From Brasilonema sp. CT11 (GTDB lineage Bacteria; Cyanobacteriota; Cyanobacteriia; Cyanobacteriales; Nostocaceae), in the NCBI RefSeq assembly GCF_017982655.1, contig NZ_JABXYX010000088.1:1-32420 (forward strand): DNA of 32,420 nt, read 5' to 3'. A program made the position numbers and the translations under genes. The notes under the pieces are model-generated. The model had not been told where the DNA came from and ran no database searches. It worked only from the letters and a program-made list of their open reading frames with translations. The first letter of the stretch is position 1, and every line of letters starts with the position of its first letter. Shown piece by piece: positions 3,842 to 28,549 of this stretch.

Positions 3842-4862
3842 ATGAGATTAGCTGTTTATGGTAAAGGAGGAAGTGGAAAAACCACTATTAGTACCTGCCT
3901 TTTGCAATTTATGAACTATTTCTGTGACTTCCAAGTTTTAGGTATTGATGGCGATCACAATTTGCATCTAGCTGAAGAACTGGGTGCAACGCCTGTCGAA
4001 ATGCAGCGGGGAGATTCGGGAACTGCACGAGATCTTGGTAATGATTTAGATTGGTTGCGTTCTTACTTTGCTGGTACCAATCCCAGAATTACTGCTGATT
4101 TACCAATGATAAAAACAACTCCGCCTGGGGAAGGATCGCGTTTGTTGCGGTTAACAGAACCAGCCGAGTGGCGCGAGGCTCCAAAGGAGCCGCCCAAAGG
4201 GCGAACGCTATGTCACTCTCATTGATGGAGTTGAATTGATTCGGGTTGGTGATTTTACACAAGACGATTATCGCAAGAAGTGCTTTCACAGCAAAACAGG
4301 GGCGATTGAGATTTTCTTAAAGCACGTTTGGGAAGATCACAACGAGGCAATTATTGTTGATATGTCAGCTGGGAAGGATGTTTTCGCTTCACCCTTACCA
4401 AGCTTGTTCGATAGAAATATCTATGTTGTCAAACCAACGCGCAAGTCAGTCAGCAATGCAGGGGATTTTCTAGCACATGCCAAAAACTTTGGTATTGAAA
4501 TGCTAGTGGTGGCGACTGACATCCGTTCCCGTCAGGAAGTCCCAGCAATTGAAAATTATCTGATGCGAACTGTAGATGCAGTCATTCCCCACGACGCATT
4601 TTTTGTCCAACGGGACTCATTAGTTCTGTCTCGTCCACCTCATGTGCGCGAAGCCAGCTTCACGGTGTTGGATGCATTTTATAGCCTTACCGATTTATTG
4701 CGTCAGCTCCCATCACATAACTGGGAAAACCGACTCACTCGAATGCTTTACCATCACGAAGAAACTGCACATGATTGGGCAGGAGTCAACTTTACAGCAC
4801 AAATTCAACCTGGTTTCAATCCATTTGAGCGCTTTCAAACCAATAAACTCGCCACAGCTTAA
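3842..4862 (+). pseudogene. CooC/MinD-like P-loop ATPase, frame broken by a repeat insertion
   Basis: The first segment (3842-4225) begins with the deviant Walker A motif GKGGSGKTT, followed by IDGDHN, typical of SIMIBI ATPases such as CooC, MinD and ArsA. The second segment continues the same protein in another frame (YVTLIDGVELIRVGD onward, including IIVDMSAGKD) and ends at 4862. The two are separated by a 34-bp double-hairpin sequence (4175-4208). Removing it gives one continuous frame of 328 residues through TGG-CGC-TAT-GTC. As it stands the first frame terminates at 4225; the second could at best restart at the TTG at 4236 without the P-loop. A pseudogene is the simplest reading. The client metal or protein of this family member is unknown. 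Confidence 0.8.
4175..4208. repeat. 34-bp double-hairpin repeat inserted in the CooC-like gene
   Basis: Two adjacent perfect hairpins with AAA loops make up the insert: GGCTCC/GGAGCC (4177-4191) and CGCCC/GGGCG (4191-4203). CGC flanks it on both sides (4172-4174 and 4206-4208), as expected for a short target duplication. The length of 34 is not a multiple of three, which causes the frameshift. Confidence 0.75.
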
Positions 4863-4893
4863 CAGTTATCAGTTATCAGTTATCAGTTATCAG
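4863..4893. repeat. CAGTTAT heptanucleotide repeat, 4 copies
   Basis: Four perfect tandem copies of CAGTTAT plus CAG start directly after the stop codon of the broken ATPase gene. The same heptamer recurs at 11360-11390. This is a classic short tandemly repeated repetitive sequence of heterocystous cyanobacteria. Confidence 0.95.
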
Positions 4894-4920
4894 GTAGGAA
4901 ACGGACAAAGTCCACCCCTT

Positions 4921-4980
4921 GTTCCCTGTTCCCTGTTCCCTGTTCCCTGTTCCCTGTTCCCTGTTCCCTGTTCACTGTTA
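4921..4980. repeat. GTTCCCT heptanucleotide repeat, 7 copies
   Basis: Seven perfect tandem copies of GTTCCCT (4921-4969), then the degenerate copy GTTCACT and a partial GTTA. Copy number is likely to vary between strains. Confidence 0.95.
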
Positions 4981-5024
4981 ATGGTAGAATAACTCAGAAA
5001 AATATAAAAAGGAATTCATTTACT

Positions 5025-6119
5025 GTGATTGGCGTTGCTGTTATTGGCACGGGATTTGGTCAGAAAGTGCATATTCCTGGATTTCTGGCTCATCCTCAGA
5101 CACAGATCGTTGCTGTATATAACCAAGATTTAAATAAAGCTAAAGCGATCGCACAATCCTACAATATTCCTCACGCCTGTAACACAATCACAGATATCGT
5201 TGGGTTGCAAGAAGTCCAAGCAGTAAGCATTTCTACACCGCCATTTTTGCATTACGAAATGGCAAAAGCAGCGCTGCAAGCAGGAAAACACGTATTAATC
5301 GAAAAACCCACAACTCTAAATGCAGCCGAAGCTAAAGAACTTTACCAGTTAGCCCAAAAAGCAGGCGTGATTGCAGTTGTAGATTTTGAATTTCGCTTTG
5401 TACCAGGATGGCAATTCTTTTCGGAACTGCTGTCACAAGGTTATGTGGGTTCAAAGCGTTTGATTAGAATTGATTGGCTAGGTTCTTCTCGTGCTGATGC
5501 TGGACGCCCTTGGAACTGGTATTCTCGTAAAGACCAAGGAGGCGGTGCATTGGGATCTTTGGGTTCTCACACTTTTGATTATATTCATTGGCTGTTTGGT
5601 CCTGTACGCAAGTTAAACGCCCATTTCACTACGGCGATCGCCGAACGACTAGACTCCAAAACTGGAGTTTTAAAGCCAGTAGAAACCGATGACACCTGTA
5701 TGCTGATGTTAGAGTTGGCAGATGGGACACCTTGTCAAGTTTCTATCAGCGCTGTGGTTCATGCATCGCGTACTCATTGGATAGAAGTGTATGGCGATCG
5801 CGCGACTTTAGTATTAGGAAGTGAAAATCAAAAAGATTACGTACATGGCTTTCGTGTTTTGTCTTCTCAACCAGGTAAAACATTAACTGAAATTGAAATT
5901 CCCAATCGGTTATTGTTTCCAGAAAATCACTCCGATGGTCGCATTTCTGCGTTTGTGAGAGTTGTAGATGAATGGGTGCAAGGAATTGAATCAAAAAAAC
6001 AAATTGTTCCATCCTTACGAGAAGGGATTTACTCTCAGTTATTAATGGATTTATCCCATGAATCTAATAATAGTTCAAGTTGGGTAAATGTACCAAGCTT
6101 GGAAGAATTTCTTGCTTAA
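5025..6119 (+). CDS. Gfo/Idh/MocA-family NAD(P)-dependent oxidoreductase
   Basis: A 364-residue soluble dehydrogenase. The N-terminal Rossmann fold carries GTGFGQ (residues 8-13) for NAD(P), the family EKP motif is at 93-95, and the C-terminal alpha/beta domain includes GGGALGSLGSHTFDYIHWLF, whose His and Asp are at the usual substrate-side positions. Such enzymes oxidise or epimerise sugars, inositols or related polyols; the substrate cannot be told from sequence. The start is the GTG at 5025, giving MIGVAVIGTG; an AAGGAA box lies about 12 bases upstream. It stands alone, after a heptamer repeat tract and before the sRNA-like units. Confidence 0.85.
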   Translation: MIGVAVIGTGFGQKVHIPGFLAHPQTQIVAVYNQDLNKAKAIAQSYNIPHACNTITDIVGLQEVQAVSISTPPFLHYEMAKAALQAGKHVLIEKPTTLNAAEAKELYQLAQKAGVIAVVDFEFRFVPGWQFFSELLSQGYVGSKRLIRIDWLGSSRADAGRPWNWYSRKDQGGGALGSLGSHTFDYIHWLFGPVRKLNAHFTTAIAERLDSKTGVLKPVETDDTCMLMLELADGTPCQVSISAVVHASRTHWIEVYGDRATLVLGSENQKDYVHGFRVLSSQPGKTLTEIEIPNRLLFPENHSDGRISAFVRVVDEWVQGIESKKQIVPSLREGIYSQLLMDLSHESNNSSSWVNVPSLEEFLA

Positions 6120-6194
6120 TAGTAGGATAATTAACGTTTCATCGTGAACCTTACTTCATGACTTATTAAATAAAAAATCATAAACTAACAGCAT

Positions 6195-6208
6195 GTATAC
6201 ACCATCAC
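6195..6208 (+). promoter_or_regulatory. NtcA-like box of sRNA-like unit 1 (one mismatch)
   Basis: GTA-N8-CAC, one base off the NtcA consensus GTA-N8-TAC, embedded in ATGTATA. GGATGG begins 36 bases after the box start, the same distance as in unit 2. Regulation is inferred. Confidence 0.4.
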
Positions 6209-6242
6209 GATTTTCAGCTTTCTATCTTTTGGATGGGGTACG

Positions 6243-6328
6243 AGAGCTTGTTTGTAGATCAAAATAGAAACGTCACAGGAAACCTGTTTTGGCAAAGACC
6301 TTCATCCCCGACTTGCTCGGGGTTTTTT
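6243..6328 (+). ncRNA. Candidate sRNA, unit 1 of a tandem pair
   Basis: No protein is encoded here. If the NtcA-like box at 6195-6208 is centred near -41.5, a transcript would start near 6243. It would contain a small hairpin, ACAGG-AAA-CCTGT (6275-6287), and end at the terminator at 6306-6328, making about 86 nt. The 5' end is an inference. The element is paralogous in layout to the unit at 6479-6570. An alternative is that the terminator simply ends the oxidoreductase transcript. Confidence 0.45.
6306..6328 (+). terminator. Rho-independent terminator, unit 1
   Basis: Stem CCCCGA (6306-6311) and TCGGGG (6317-6322) with loop CTTGC, followed by six T. Confidence 0.9.
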
Positions 6329-6430
6329 ATAATTGATAGGATTTAGTCATTCCCGCTATTTTTTAAAATTGAATCTAGTTTTTCGTAAACAATTTCGGCT
6401 TTTTCTTAAACTTTCATTTTCCAAAAATAT

Positions 6431-6444
6431 GTATATTCAGTTAC
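6431..6444 (+). promoter_or_regulatory. Perfect NtcA-type box of sRNA-like unit 2
   Basis: GTATATTCAGTTAC matches the NtcA consensus GTA-N8-TAC exactly, within the wider palindrome ATGTA...TACAT. Downstream, GATGGT (6468-6473) sits 23 bases after the box at a -10 position; it is a poor TAN3T match, so the site needs testing. Confidence 0.55.
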
Positions 6445-6478
6445 ATATTTACGTTTTACTCCTTTGGGATGGTGTGAA

Positions 6479-6570
6479 ATTGTTTTCTTCAAATGAAAAT
6501 ACAATACAACACTGGAATACGCTGCATAAATAAAAGCACAGCATACCCCGACAAGATCGGGGTTTTTTTT
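6479..6570 (+). ncRNA. Candidate sRNA, unit 2 of a tandem pair
   Basis: A perfect NtcA-type box (6431-6444) is followed 36 bases later by GGATGG and 79 bases after that by a terminator whose stem is identical to that of unit 1. A start near 6479 would give about 92 nt. The body is A-rich and unstructured before the terminator, as expected for a trans-acting sRNA. Known NtcA-controlled sRNAs of this group (for example NsiR4, NsrR1) are possible homologues, but I cannot match the sequence from memory. Confidence 0.5.
6546..6570 (+). terminator. Rho-independent terminator, unit 2
   Basis: Stem CCCCGA (6546-6551) and TCGGGG (6557-6562) with loop CAAGA, followed by eight T. The stem is identical to that at 6306-6322. 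Confidence 0.92.
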
Positions 6571-6617
6571 GGATATCTACAGTAGCTTCCAACTGCGTCA
6601 AACAAAGATACAAAAAA

Positions 6618-7883
6618 CTATTTTCTTACCAAGTTAAGAATTTGTTGTGCAGCACGTTGACCACTGCTAATTGCACCCTCCATATAACCACGATACTCCA
6701 CAGGAGCAGTATGCTCACCAGCAAAGAAAACTCGACCAGCAGGCTGCGTTAAATGTGACTCAAAACGATGCAACTCTCCTGGTCTAAAGTAGCAGTAGGC
6801 ACCTCGTGCCCATTCATCAGCACTCCAATCATATGAACGAGAGGCGATAATCTCGGGTGCATCAGGGTGGATTATACGCACTGTTGCTGTCGCTAACTCA
6901 GTTGCTTGCTCACACAGCTTTAAACTCCGAGTACCTCCACTGAAACAAGAAAGGATTTTTTCTGTCCCCATCTGAGCAAAGGTTGGTTCCCAGATAGCTT
7001 GGTACTCGCTGTCAAGTGAGACAATTCCAAAATTAGGCTTTGACCAAAAACGGTGCGGGTATTGCAGTAGAGTCTTAACAACACCACCGTAAGGTAAGCT
7101 AGAAATCGCTTCTCGCTGTGCATCAATAAGCGGTGCTTCTATGGGGATATGATGCAGTACACTCCAGGGGAGTGTCACTATCACGCTCTGAGCTATAACT
7201 TCAACCAAACCGTTTGCTGTTTCAACACTGACAGTCACACTGTCATCTATCTGTTGGATACGACGCATAGGAGTACTAGTATGAACTCGCTTCCCTAGAT
7301 GTTTCGCCAAAGCATCTACTAAACGCGAAACACCACCACGAACTCGCATATTGCTTTTATTGTCCATACCTGCAACTGAAGCAAAAAAACCCACACCAAT
7401 AAACTCTGGATCAGTAGCAAATAATGAAGAAGCCATCCGACGGGCCATTTGACGAGCAAAAGGTGCAATTGGTTCTGTATTCAACCACTCATCTAACGTC
7501 TGTTGCGGATCTTTTTGTTCTTCAAGCAAGCTGTAGAGTTTTGTGTAGAAATTCTCCACGCCAGTATTTTGTTCTTTTGTCAAGGACATAGCGTTACGAA
7601 GCATTCCATCGATGAACCAGTAGAGGTCATCAGGAAATTTGCAGGCTGGGTCAAGTTCGATACCGAATTGGGTTGCATAACTTTTCAAAGCAGTGTGGTT
7701 ATCGTCCACAAACTCAGCACCTAATTCTCCATATTGTGCTGCATTCAGTTGAACAGTATAAGCCCGACCGCCCACGCGTTCACGCGCTTCAAAAACTTGG
7801 ACATCTATTCCTAAGCGTACAAGTTCATAAGCTGCACTCAGTCCTGCTAGTCCTGCACCAAGGATAATAGTTTGATGTGCCAT
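6618..7883 (-). CDS. Flavin-dependent amine oxidase
   Basis: A 421-residue FAD enzyme of the monoamine/polyamine/L-amino-acid oxidase superfamily. The N-terminus has the dinucleotide-binding GAGLAGLSAAYEL followed by FEARERVGGRA, and the C-terminus has the second FAD motif GRVFFAGEHTAPVEYRGYME. The middle part is the variable substrate domain, so the amine oxidised is not predictable. No signal peptide is visible; the protein should be cytoplasmic. The ATG at 7883 is well supported by AAGGAG seven bases upstream. It converges on the sRNA-like units and is probably a single-gene transcript. Confidence 0.88.
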   Translation of the reverse strand: MAHQTIILGAGLAGLSAAYELVRLGIDVQVFEARERVGGRAYTVQLNAAQYGELGAEFVDDNHTALKSYATQFGIELDPACKFPDDLYWFIDGMLRNAMSLTKEQNTGVENFYTKLYSLLEEQKDPQQTLDEWLNTEPIAPFARQMARRMASSLFATDPEFIGVGFFASVAGMDNKSNMRVRGGVSRLVDALAKHLGKRVHTSTPMRRIQQIDDSVTVSVETANGLVEVIAQSVIVTLPWSVLHHIPIEAPLIDAQREAISSLPYGGVVKTLLQYPHRFWSKPNFGIVSLDSEYQAIWEPTFAQMGTEKILSCFSGGTRSLKLCEQATELATATVRIIHPDAPEIIASRSYDWSADEWARGAYCYFRPGELHRFESHLTQPAGRVFFAGEHTAPVEYRGYMEGAISSGQRAAQQILNLVRK

Positions 7884-9120: not shown

Positions 9121-9143
9121 TAGAGAAAAGCTGAGGTATGACG

Positions 9144-10091
9144 ATGTCCGAATATAAAGTGTTTCTTTGCCACAACAGTGAAGACAAGCCAGAGGTAAGA
9201 AAAATTAAGGATAAGCTACTGGTGCAAGGTATTGAAACCTGGATGGATGAGAAAAATCTCTATGGCTTTGACGATTGGAAGAAAAAGATAACAGAAAATA
9301 TTCCTCAAATGGATGCTGTTGCTGTATTCCTTGGTTCGTTAGGGTTTGGAGAGTGGCAAAAGTGGGAAATAACACGCACTGACGAAGAAATAAATGGGCC
9401 TAAACAGAACAAACTTCGCGCAGGATTGGTTATACTACCTAGTTGCAAACAAAAATTGCAAGAGATTCAGAATCAGTACTACAAAACACCGTATGGGTGG
9501 TTATTTAAGCATCACGTGGTTGATTTGCGCGAATCTAAAGCTCCAGTCCAAGAACTAATTCGAGCTATAACAGGAGAGGCGTGGGAGGTAGATGACCTCA
9601 GCAGTAAAGGTGATGTAGACTACACCCGATTGCGAGATTTACTAAAAGCAGAAAACTGGAAAAAAGCGCATCAAGAAACTGTCGATGTCATGTCCGAGGC
9701 AGCTGGTAGAGAACAAGACTTTGGGCTGGATATCCAATCCATCAAAAACTTTCCCTGCACTGACCTCCGCACAATTGACCAACTTTGGGTAAAATACAGT
9801 GGTGGGCGCTTTGGCTTTAGTGTGCAAAACCGCATTTGGGAAAGCGTGGGTAAAGACTACGAAAAGTTTGCCTTACGCGTGGGTTGGCGCTATGGAAAGC
9901 CTTTTAGTCCGTCTTTAGGTTTAAAGTCGTTTATGGCCCGCCCTAGTACAATGTTATTAACCTTCTCCACAAATGTCCCCCAGGGACATCTCCCTTGTGT
10001 TATCGGGACGGCATCGTTTGGGGGGGAAGCAGTTTGGGTGGGCAGTGAGTTCTCTGCTCTCGCGTCCAGACTTGTAAACTGTAACATATAA
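9144..10091 (+). CDS. TIR domain-GUN4 domain fusion protein
   Basis: About 315 residues. The N-terminal TIR domain (about residues 3-145) opens with YKVFLCHNSEDKPEVRKI and carries WQKWE, whose Glu fits the catalytic position of NAD-cleaving TIR domains. The C-terminal GUN4 domain (about 155-315) has the signature stretches IKNFPCTDLRTIDQLWVKYS, RFGFSVQNRIW, FSTNVPQGHLP and SLASRLVNCNI-like ending (here SALASRLVNCNI). GUN4 domains bind porphyrins such as protoporphyrin IX and, in the stand-alone protein, stimulate Mg-chelatase. The fusion suggests a porphyrin-sensing or other ligand-sensing effector that degrades NAD, perhaps in defence; this is inference. ATG 9144 is chosen over 9138 because GAGG lies seven bases before it. 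The preceding partner gene is frameshifted. Confidence 0.85.
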   Translation: MSEYKVFLCHNSEDKPEVRKIKDKLLVQGIETWMDEKNLYGFDDWKKKITENIPQMDAVAVFLGSLGFGEWQKWEITRTDEEINGPKQNKLRAGLVILPSCKQKLQEIQNQYYKTPYGWLFKHHVVDLRESKAPVQELIRAITGEAWEVDDLSSKGDVDYTRLRDLLKAENWKKAHQETVDVMSEAAGREQDFGLDIQSIKNFPCTDLRTIDQLWVKYSGGRFGFSVQNRIWESVGKDYEKFALRVGWRYGKPFSPSLGLKSFMARPSTMLLTFSTNVPQGHLPCVIGTASFGGEAVWVGSEFSALASRLVNCNI

Positions 10092-26950: not shown

Positions 26951-28549
26951 TTATCGCAAATTGGTGTAAAAGTCAACAATTTGTTCTGTGATTTCAGAAA
27001 CACTCATACCATCTGTCGTTATTTCAACAGCATCTGGAGCTTTTTGTAGGGGGGATACTTTGCGAGTGCTGTCTTTCCAGTCACGTTCAGCGATATCCTT
27101 TTCCAGCTGCTGTATACTAACTTCTGGTTGACCAAGTCTATGAAAGTCTTGCTGGCGTCTACGAGCACGCTCGCTGACAGAGGCGGTGAGAAAGATTTTT
27201 ACTTCTGCATCAGGGAAAACTTGGGTACCTATGTCCCTGCCTTCTGCAACTAAACCACCTTTTTTACCCCAATTCTGCTGTTGTTTGAGCAGTGCTTGAC
27301 GTACAGCACTTTGAGCGGCGATCGCTGATACTTTAGATGTCACCTCGTGAGTACGAATTGCTTGGGTAACATCAATATCGTTAATCCAAACCTGTACTGG
27401 CGTTTGTAAGTCTTTGCTAGGGGTTAGTTCAATCACACACTGGCTGACTAGTTCTGCGATCGCACACTCATCGTCTAAAGCCATTCCCTTTTGCAGCACT
27501 AACCAAGTGACAGCACGATACATTGCTCCTGTATCTAAATACACTAAACCCAGGTTTGCTGCGACTTGACGAGCAACAGTAGATTTTCCAGCTCCGGCAG
27601 GTCCGTCTATGGCGATGATGGGTTGGCGAGCGCGCAGAATGATGTTATCAATCAAACGTGTAGAACCAAGACGAGCAGCGATCGCGAGCATTCCTTCTTC
27701 CTCAATTTTTTCTTCTATAAGCATCAACGTATTTGGTTCAACCAATTCAATATATTCCACTAAAACAGAACTGAACATTGCCACTTCTTGCCGTACCGCC
27801 GCTATGAGGGCTTTTGCATCACGAACTCCTGCGCTAAAAGCTGCTTGAGCGTTTTGCAAACCACGATACAACACTGATGCTTGTTGCTTTTGTGTTGCGG
27901 TCAAATATTGGTTACGAGAGCTTACGGCAAGACCAGATGCTTCTCGCACCGTAGGACAAGCAACAATCTCTATTGGAAAATTCAAATCAGCTACAAGCCG
28001 TTTAATAATGGCAAGCTGCTGACCGTCTTTTTGACCGAAATAAGCTCGGTCAGGCTGCACCAAGTTGAAAAGCTTGGTGACAATTGTGGCTACACCTTGG
28101 AAATGACCCAGCCGAGTACGACCACACAAGCCTGATATCATAGCAGATGGCGGGATAACTTGTGTAACTTTTGATTCTTGTACAATCTTCTGGGCAACTC
28201 CCATCTCTTCCGGAGTAGGAGCAAAAATTGCATCGACTCCTGCTTGTGAGCAAAGTAATTGGTCTTGCTCTGTTGTACGAGGATAGCGTTGGTAATCTTC
28301 GTTTGGACCAAATTGCAGCGGATTTACGAAGATACTGACAATCACTATGGCATTTTCTTGCCGTGCCCGTTGAATTAAGTTTAAATGACCTTGATGCAAC
28401 GCTCCCATCGTAGGAACCAAACCAACAGCTGTGTGGGATCGAGCAGTGACCTCAAATGCTAACAGCTGCGCTTGATCCACAAGCTGGTTTTCAAAACGGT
28501 GTTGAGCTAAATAGCAGCGTAAAGCTGCGACTGTTGTTAACAGGCGCAC
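26951..28549 (-). CDS. panC/cmk: Bifunctional pantoate-beta-alanine ligase/cytidylate kinase
   Basis: 532 residues, a fusion typical of cyanobacteria. The N-terminal PanC part (1 to about 300) has VPTMGALHQGHLNLI, the HIGH-type ATP motif, and VSIFVNPLQFGPNEDYQRYP; it joins pantoate and beta-alanine to make pantothenate. The C-terminal Cmk part (about 310-532) has the P-loop GPAGAGKST, DTGAMYRAVTW and AEGRDIGTQVFPDA, and phosphorylates CMP and dCMP. The two activities belong to unrelated pathways (coenzyme A and pyrimidine nucleotides). The start is GTG at 28549. Confidence 0.95.
   Translation of the reverse strand: MRLLTTVAALRCYLAQHRFENQLVDQAQLLAFEVTARSHTAVGLVPTMGALHQGHLNLIQRARQENAIVIVSIFVNPLQFGPNEDYQRYPRTTEQDQLLCSQAGVDAIFAPTPEEMGVAQKIVQESKVTQVIPPSAMISGLCGRTRLGHFQGVATIVTKLFNLVQPDRAYFGQKDGQQLAIIKRLVADLNFPIEIVACPTVREASGLAVSSRNQYLTATQKQQASVLYRGLQNAQAAFSAGVRDAKALIAAVRQEVAMFSSVLVEYIELVEPNTLMLIEEKIEEEGMLAIAARLGSTRLIDNIILRARQPIIAIDGPAGAGKSTVARQVAANLGLVYLDTGAMYRAVTWLVLQKGMALDDECAIAELVSQCVIELTPSKDLQTPVQVWINDIDVTQAIRTHEVTSKVSAIAAQSAVRQALLKQQQNWGKKGGLVAEGRDIGTQVFPDAEVKIFLTASVSERARRRQQDFHRLGQPEVSIQQLEKDIAERDWKDSTRKVSPLQKAPDAVEITTDGMSVSEITEQIVDFYTNLR

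Follow-up and report, generated by a model that had tools for sequence, protein, structure and literature searches.

Sibling small RNA (sRNA) families of other bacteria consist of paralogous sRNAs that share a control region and carry diverged bodies. In the portions of the literature available to us, nitrogen-linked sRNAs come from Nostoc 7120, Nodularia and Synechocystis. As far as the accessible sections of the reports go, NsiR1 of Nostoc sp. PCC 7120 is about 60 nt long and occurs upstream of hetF in 12 copies, seven of them identical, with a DIF1 motif (PMC9045159). NsiR3 is intergenic, is given as 99 or 115 nt depending on the paper, has an NtcA-type site (PMC4734099, PMC3610870) and has homologues in 27 of 27 heterocystous genomes (PMC4734099). 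NsrR1 has an NtcA-type box (GTRN8TAC) at its promoter, overlapping the -10 element (PMC6166021). According to the same accessible sections, sites activated by NtcA lie at -41.5 and are combined with a TAN3T -10 element, and repressed ones lie over the core promoter (PMC6166021, PMC3898017).

We analysed a window of 32,420 nt (the whole stretch of DNA, which is contig C46 of genome G000, here called the own genome) that contains two candidate sRNA units, U1 and U2, with the following layout.

5025-6119, plus strand: Gfo/Idh/MocA oxidoreductase gene just upstream of U1/U2, used as the syntenic anchor
6195-6208, plus strand: U1 NtcA-type box, GTA-N8-CAC (6 of the 7 subfamily A members compiled have GTAN8YAC)
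6221-6238, plus strand: U1 block 1 (TCTATCTTTTGGATGGGG), holding TATCTT (6223-6228) and GGATGG (6231-6236)
6261-6269, plus strand: U1 A-rich block 2 (AAAATAGAA)
6272-6294, plus strand: U1 core GTCACAGGAAACCTGTTTTGGCA, with a predicted hairpin ACAGG-AAA-CCTGT
6306-6328, plus strand: U1 predicted intrinsic terminator and T run (hairpin 6306-6322, stem CCCCGA/TCGGGG, loop CTTGC)
6431-6444, plus strand: U2 NtcA-type box, GTA-N8-TAC, a perfect consensus
6455-6472, plus strand: U2 block 1 (TTTACTCCTTTGGGATGG), with GGATGG at 6467-6472
6496-6504, plus strand: U2 A-rich block 2 (AAAATACAA)
6506-6528, plus strand: U2 core ACAACACTGGAATACGCTGCATA
6546-6570, plus strand: U2 predicted intrinsic terminator and T run (hairpin 6546-6562, stem CCCCGA/TCGGGG, loop CAAGA)
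6618-7883, minus strand: amine oxidase gene downstream of U1/U2

U1 and U2 resemble NsiR1, whose diverged copies have partly different targets according to the accessible part of the report, in being tandem small-RNA-like units with individual putative promoters (PMC9045159). They differ from it in their neighbours, which are Gfo/Idh and amine oxidase genes and not hetF, and in that their family forms unlike pairs at several loci instead of 12 copies by hetF. TCCGGA, which we take to be the DIF1 motif, was not found within 4 kb of U1/U2, the nearest copy being 4.2 kb away. Like NsiR3, as far as its reports could be consulted, each unit is intergenic and has an NtcA-type site, but U1 and U2 were each found in 10 of 217 family genomes, and it is this distribution, not sequence, that sets them apart from an RNA reported in 27 of 27 heterocystous genomes. 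The NtcA-type box at a (predicted) sRNA promoter recalls NsrR1; whereas the NsrR1 box is placed over the -10 in the sections consulted, the U1 box ends 14 nt before TATCTT (6223-6228), the best -10-like hexamer of U1. What distinguishes this family from sibling sRNA families is that dissimilar units are paired in tandem at several loci and that the control block is conserved more strongly than the body. We found no such sRNA family in the literature searched, in which subscription papers were thinly covered.

The initial annotation had described two similarly laid out units, and its coordinates and spacings hold: in both, GGATGG begins 36 bases from the start of the box, the predicted terminator follows 75 (U1) or 79 (U2) bases from the start of GGATGG with identical stems and unlike loops, 236 bp separate the units and the second box is a perfect GTA-N8-TAC. 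The pattern GTAN8YAC-N22-GGATGG matched twice in the window, at U1 and U2, as did the CCCCGA/TCGGGG terminator pattern, and neither was found in 100 shuffles. The joint layout is far beyond chance. The 7 copies of GTAN8TAC in the window, taken alone, do not exceed chance (4.4 expected). The box followed by GGATGG after 18-26 nt occurs 9 times in the own genome versus 8 in the reversed control, and among those nine only U1 and U2 have the N22 spacing. Neither unit appears to encode a protein, again as annotated. U2 reads ATG GTG TGA, and the U1 frame from the ATG at 6233 runs into a stop behind an indel in L026, and in L022-L024 its end lies in another frame. A small protein from this ATG was rejected, the open frame not being kept among orthologues.

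We read U1 and U2 as tandem paralogous sRNA genes of a clade-specific, multi-locus family, under NtcA- or CRP-type control and acting by base pairing, and give this reading a probability of roughly 0.68. In each unit a CRP/NtcA-type box stands about 21-22 nt ahead of a T-rich CTTTTGGATG block; an A-rich block comes about 29 nt after that, followed by a subfamily-specific body and a predicted terminator of the unit's own. We infer transcription, the regulator and the mode of action: most likely, each unit would yield an RNA of roughly 85-100 nt, NtcA or a related CRP-type factor would control both predicted RNAs, and each of the two would work in trans, pairing with a different set of mRNAs.

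The paralogy of U1 and U2 is established by sequence comparison. With box and terminator included, the U1 profile matched U2 copies at E 4e-7 to 1e-4, and the U2 profile matched U1 copies at E 1e-10 to 3e-4. Alignment of the two window copies (W_U1 and W_U2) gave z-scores of 12.6 (local) and 8.2 (global) for the full units, and 6.5 and 5.3 after removal of box and terminator, a score reached by 0 of 2,000 shuffles. The similarity of the bodies taken alone is weak (z 2.5 local, reached by 62 of 2,000 shuffles; 3.8 global, 0 of 2,000). These comparisons bear out the proposal of duplicated units with their own terminators, and the bodies differ, as had been said of a diverging pair.

To the conservation of the units several searches bear witness. 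A DNA search of 59 genomes, the own genome counted, found U1 in six and U2 in seven; six of the U2 matches were in genus g1, and the seventh (G011) covered 25 bases and proved on reading to be no unit. Among the seven genus-g1 genomes in that search, G005 gave a match for U1 alone and G006 for U2 alone. When 80 named loci that have the Gfo/Idh gene were scanned with profiles of U1 and U2, eight matched: L022-L024 and L027-L029 carry both units in the same position, L025 has U2 as its own unit and L026 has U1. The remaining 72 loci gave nothing better than E 0.48, although at least three of them (L037, L072 and L098) are no evidence of absence because each has <300 bases downstream. G220 also has both units at the same place, its upstream gene being read by eye. 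Covariance models, run with strict filters on 217 family genomes, matched 11 genomes for each unit; 10 were true on reading for U1 (the G117 match is another family member) and 10 for U2 (the G005 match is its U1). The initial annotation had tied its proposal to the presence of the units in close relatives, and six relatives carry both at the locus.

In those six, identity to the window was 80-99% for U1 and 82-97% for U2, compared with 20-84% for the 90 bases upstream (partly gene end), 8-58% for the 90 bases downstream and 28-82% for the U1-U2 spacer (counted over the longer spacer). Unit identity exceeded that of spacer and flanks in six of six, with a narrow margin in L023 and L024 (upstream flank 84 and 82% versus U1 90 and 89%). 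The U1 core has the same letters in all 10 orthologues read, G220 among them; the U2 core has a single substitution (L025) across nine orthologues, and its letters in G220 are identical. The distance between U1 and U2 varies from 159 to 405 bp across eight genomes. Because Scytonema NIES-4073, HT-58-2 and G220 have this pair too, the duplication would predate the splits among these, assuming vertical descent.

The closest named relatives of the Gfo/Idh protein are from Brasilonema angustatum (97%), B. bromeliae (95%) and Scytonema tolypothrichoides VB-61278 (94%), followed by Brasilonema sp. UFV-L1 (88%) and Scytonema sp. RU_4_4 (86%). The window would thus come from a Brasilonema. The gene 3' of the pair is on the minus strand in the window, and in G005 and G006 a different gene stands there on the plus strand (by eye). 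We rejected a leader or attenuator because the downstream gene differs in this way.

Judged by sequence, the U1/U2 pair is one of several loci of a larger family that the initial annotation did not contain. Weak covariance matches at other loci were, on reading, further units of the same plan, and a control-region pattern allowing at most three mismatches matched 12 times, in 8 of 208 genomes, while the reversed control did not match at all. R3, a sequence-only model of 22 family members, gave 50 matches at E <= 1e-3 on 13 genomes picked for earlier matches, 40 of which have a same-strand neighbour no more than about 500 bp away, although not all 50 were read (G111:4629320, for instance, was not). 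Run on 208 family genomes with strict filters that lose weak matches, R3 matched 18 at E <= 1e-3; we accepted 14, in five genera (G000-G006, G011, G023, G111, G117, G119, G120 and G220), and by eye judged the weak matches in G026, G083, G127 and G137 to be chance (E 1.6e-4 to 5.3e-4). With the same filters, 291 genomes of the order gave only G000 and three weak matches (G263, G296 and G390, in the same range of E), also judged chance by eye.

By their bodies, the members can be grouped into four subfamilies, A (which holds U1), B (U2), C and D, and a mixed remainder called E. A C unit and a D unit stand together as a second tandem pair, which in G000 lies at C86:8267-8487 (minus strand; locus L191), divergent from purB; the neighbouring purB was identified by family search in L191 only and by eye in L120, L136 and L196. 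The C unit of G011 looks truncated and that of G000 lacks a clear terminator. The subfamily D core, near ATGCTTCTCCAGCATTTCTCTTCTCAAT, recurs in L120, L136 and L191-L196. ATGCTTCTCCAGCATTTCTCTTCTCAAT is a predicted hairpin with a pyrimidine-rich loop, which could pair with Shine-Dalgarno sequences, as in an anti-Shine-Dalgarno-like sRNA. The D core pattern was found in 1 of 291 genomes of the order sample, G000, which says little because that sample held only G000 of the 14 accepted genomes. The G120 pair and one G220 member adjoin psaJ-like frames that score below the curated family cut-off.

At L121:1204-1353 and L197:2458-2607 (both minus strand), small psaJ-like frames (photosystem I subunit IX, below the curated cut-off) and family members are neighbours.

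That three blocks keep a nearly fixed spacing in paralogues whose bodies are unlike would also suit a DNA-level element, such as a mobile cassette or a protein-binding array, instead of RNA genes. We consider this very improbable: many units end in a terminator-like hairpin and T run on the same strand, and the stem letters differ by subfamily (by eye).

A 22-row alignment of the control region has five invariant letters in and near GGATG: T(-10), C(-5), T(-3), G(0) and G(7). G(1) and T(3) were also invariant in 10 chosen paralogues, G(1) being broken in L024 and T(3) in L027. An A-rich block follows GGATG after about 28-30 nt in most members; it is altered in G220_U1 and G000_C and missing in the truncated G011_C. 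Of 33 members that we compiled by hand, orthologues among them, 24 have a GTRN8YAC box 20-22 nt upstream of the GGATG anchor (500 shuffles: mean 0.05, maximum 1). At this distance GTAN8YAC occurs in 21 of 33 and GTAN8TAC, with varied N8, in 11 of 33 (shuffle mean 0.03). The counts are partly selected because R3 was trained on 22 of the 33 members and scores box columns; of the 11 members outside its training, eight have the box, five of them perfect. The box is present in 6 of 7 members of A, 2 of 5 of B, 4 of 5 of C, 2 of 6 of D and 10 of 10 of E, and missing at the expected distance in nine (one of A, three of B, one of C and four of D). A U2-type box keeps its distance in 2 of 5 compiled B members, with the box of a third 11 nt further upstream, and the U2 orthologues of L027, L028, G220 and, by reading, L029 have lost or displaced it.

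Because the box stands at 20-22 nt in 24 of 33 members, the arrangement suggests NtcA or a related CRP-type factor acting there, and the annotated NtcA-type boxes (W_U2 perfect, W_U1 with C for T) are kept as candidate sites. A canonical class II promoter would have its TAN3T -10 about 22 nt past the site, where GGATGG is found here, and TATCTT, the U1 hexamer most like TAN3T, is 8 bp too near the box for canonical geometry; canonical NtcA activation of U1/U2 is not supported by these sequences. Simple activation is disfavoured because start sites at 6243/6479, as the -41.5 rule gives them, call for a TAN3T at the place taken by GGATGG, and because some U2 orthologues have lost or displaced the box. 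A -10 at the A-rich block was not adopted (T at position 6 in 18% of members). Transcription could start near GGATG (from TATCTT), at 6243/6479 or after the A-rich block; we favour the first, which would give RNAs of about 95-100 nt.

As to the sign of control, activation is favoured by the kept spacing and the lack of an evident -35, and repression by the position of the box, which covers part of the -35 region belonging to the best -10-like hexamer. If U1 and U2 were real sRNA genes repressed by NtcA, with the sign of NsrR1, TATCTT (6223-6228) would be the -10, the box would cover the -35 and the RNAs would appear under plentiful combined nitrogen. NtcA-repressed promoters carry the box over the -35, the -10 or the start site in the parts of the reports available (PMC6166021, PMC3898017), and 14 of 33 members have TAN3T at offset -8, while all 33 have its last T (the anchor is off by one in some). 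Yet A is at the second hexamer position in only 42% of members, W_U2 has CTCCTT where U1 has TATCTT, no -35 is seen by eye, and the 20-22 nt box-to-block spacing, which a roadblock would not need, is kept in very diverged members. We regard repression as unlikely.

Similarly improbable, in our estimate, is that the box serves another CRP-family factor, or no regulator, with U1 and U2 being sRNAs under other control. The loss of the box in several B and D units fits this, as does the chance-level frequency of lone GTAN8TAC in the window, and we take the TCACA right half of the box to be as CRP-like as NtcA-like. The perfect GTAN8TAC with varied N8 at 20-22 nt in 11 of 33 members (shuffle mean 0.03) argues against it.

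Returning to a clade-specific sRNA family under NtcA- or CRP-type control, a bolder version, which we hold as a tentative and somewhat doubtful possibility, is that box, CTTTTGGATG and A-rich block, set at nearly constant distances, may constitute a distinct promoter class without ordinary -35 and -10 elements, spread as a cassette in one clade and driving freely evolving sRNAs. The unlike tandem pair would then be the unit of duplication and inheritance, and the control that of a nitrogen-controlled regulon, not of single sRNAs. A Brasilonema/Scytonema family with a stereotyped control region, several loci in each genome and freely diverging bodies would show sRNA regulons growing by paired duplication, and it would test how NtcA, or a relative, works on RNA polymerase because the control region misfits the standard NtcA rule.

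Searches for RNA structure and targets gave the following. Folding compared with shuffles, terminator included, was no better for U1 (z 0.21) and better for U2 (z -2.86). The pairs of the U1 core hairpin never vary among orthologues, and so show no covariation; a 5' hairpin in U2 was rejected, its inner stem not being kept in all orthologues and showing no covariation. Rfam 15 gave no match above gathering score in the window and 10 other loci, and a 361-base stretch of L191 had no match at E <= 1. Of six sub-threshold matches in 6100-6650, the best was Trp_leader, taken as chance at 25.3 bits against a threshold of 41. With own sites excluded, the U1 antisense 16-mer matched 40 times in six genomes versus 42 in the control, giving no target. 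That of U2 matched 17 times versus 9, a modest excess in which no target was found. The single U2 match common to G111 and G119 falls where a small frame begins (by eye) and was rejected because it is on the strand opposite to the frame, so that this mRNA would not pair with U2.

Elsewhere in the window, 3842-4992 (plus strand) holds three short ORFs, with a partial ParA/CobQ-type match in the first only, and may be a broken gene. A protein with an N-terminal TIR domain and a GUN4-like domain is encoded at 9138-10091 (plus strand), and 26951-28549 (minus strand) encodes one protein with pantoate-beta-alanine ligase and cytidylate kinase domains.
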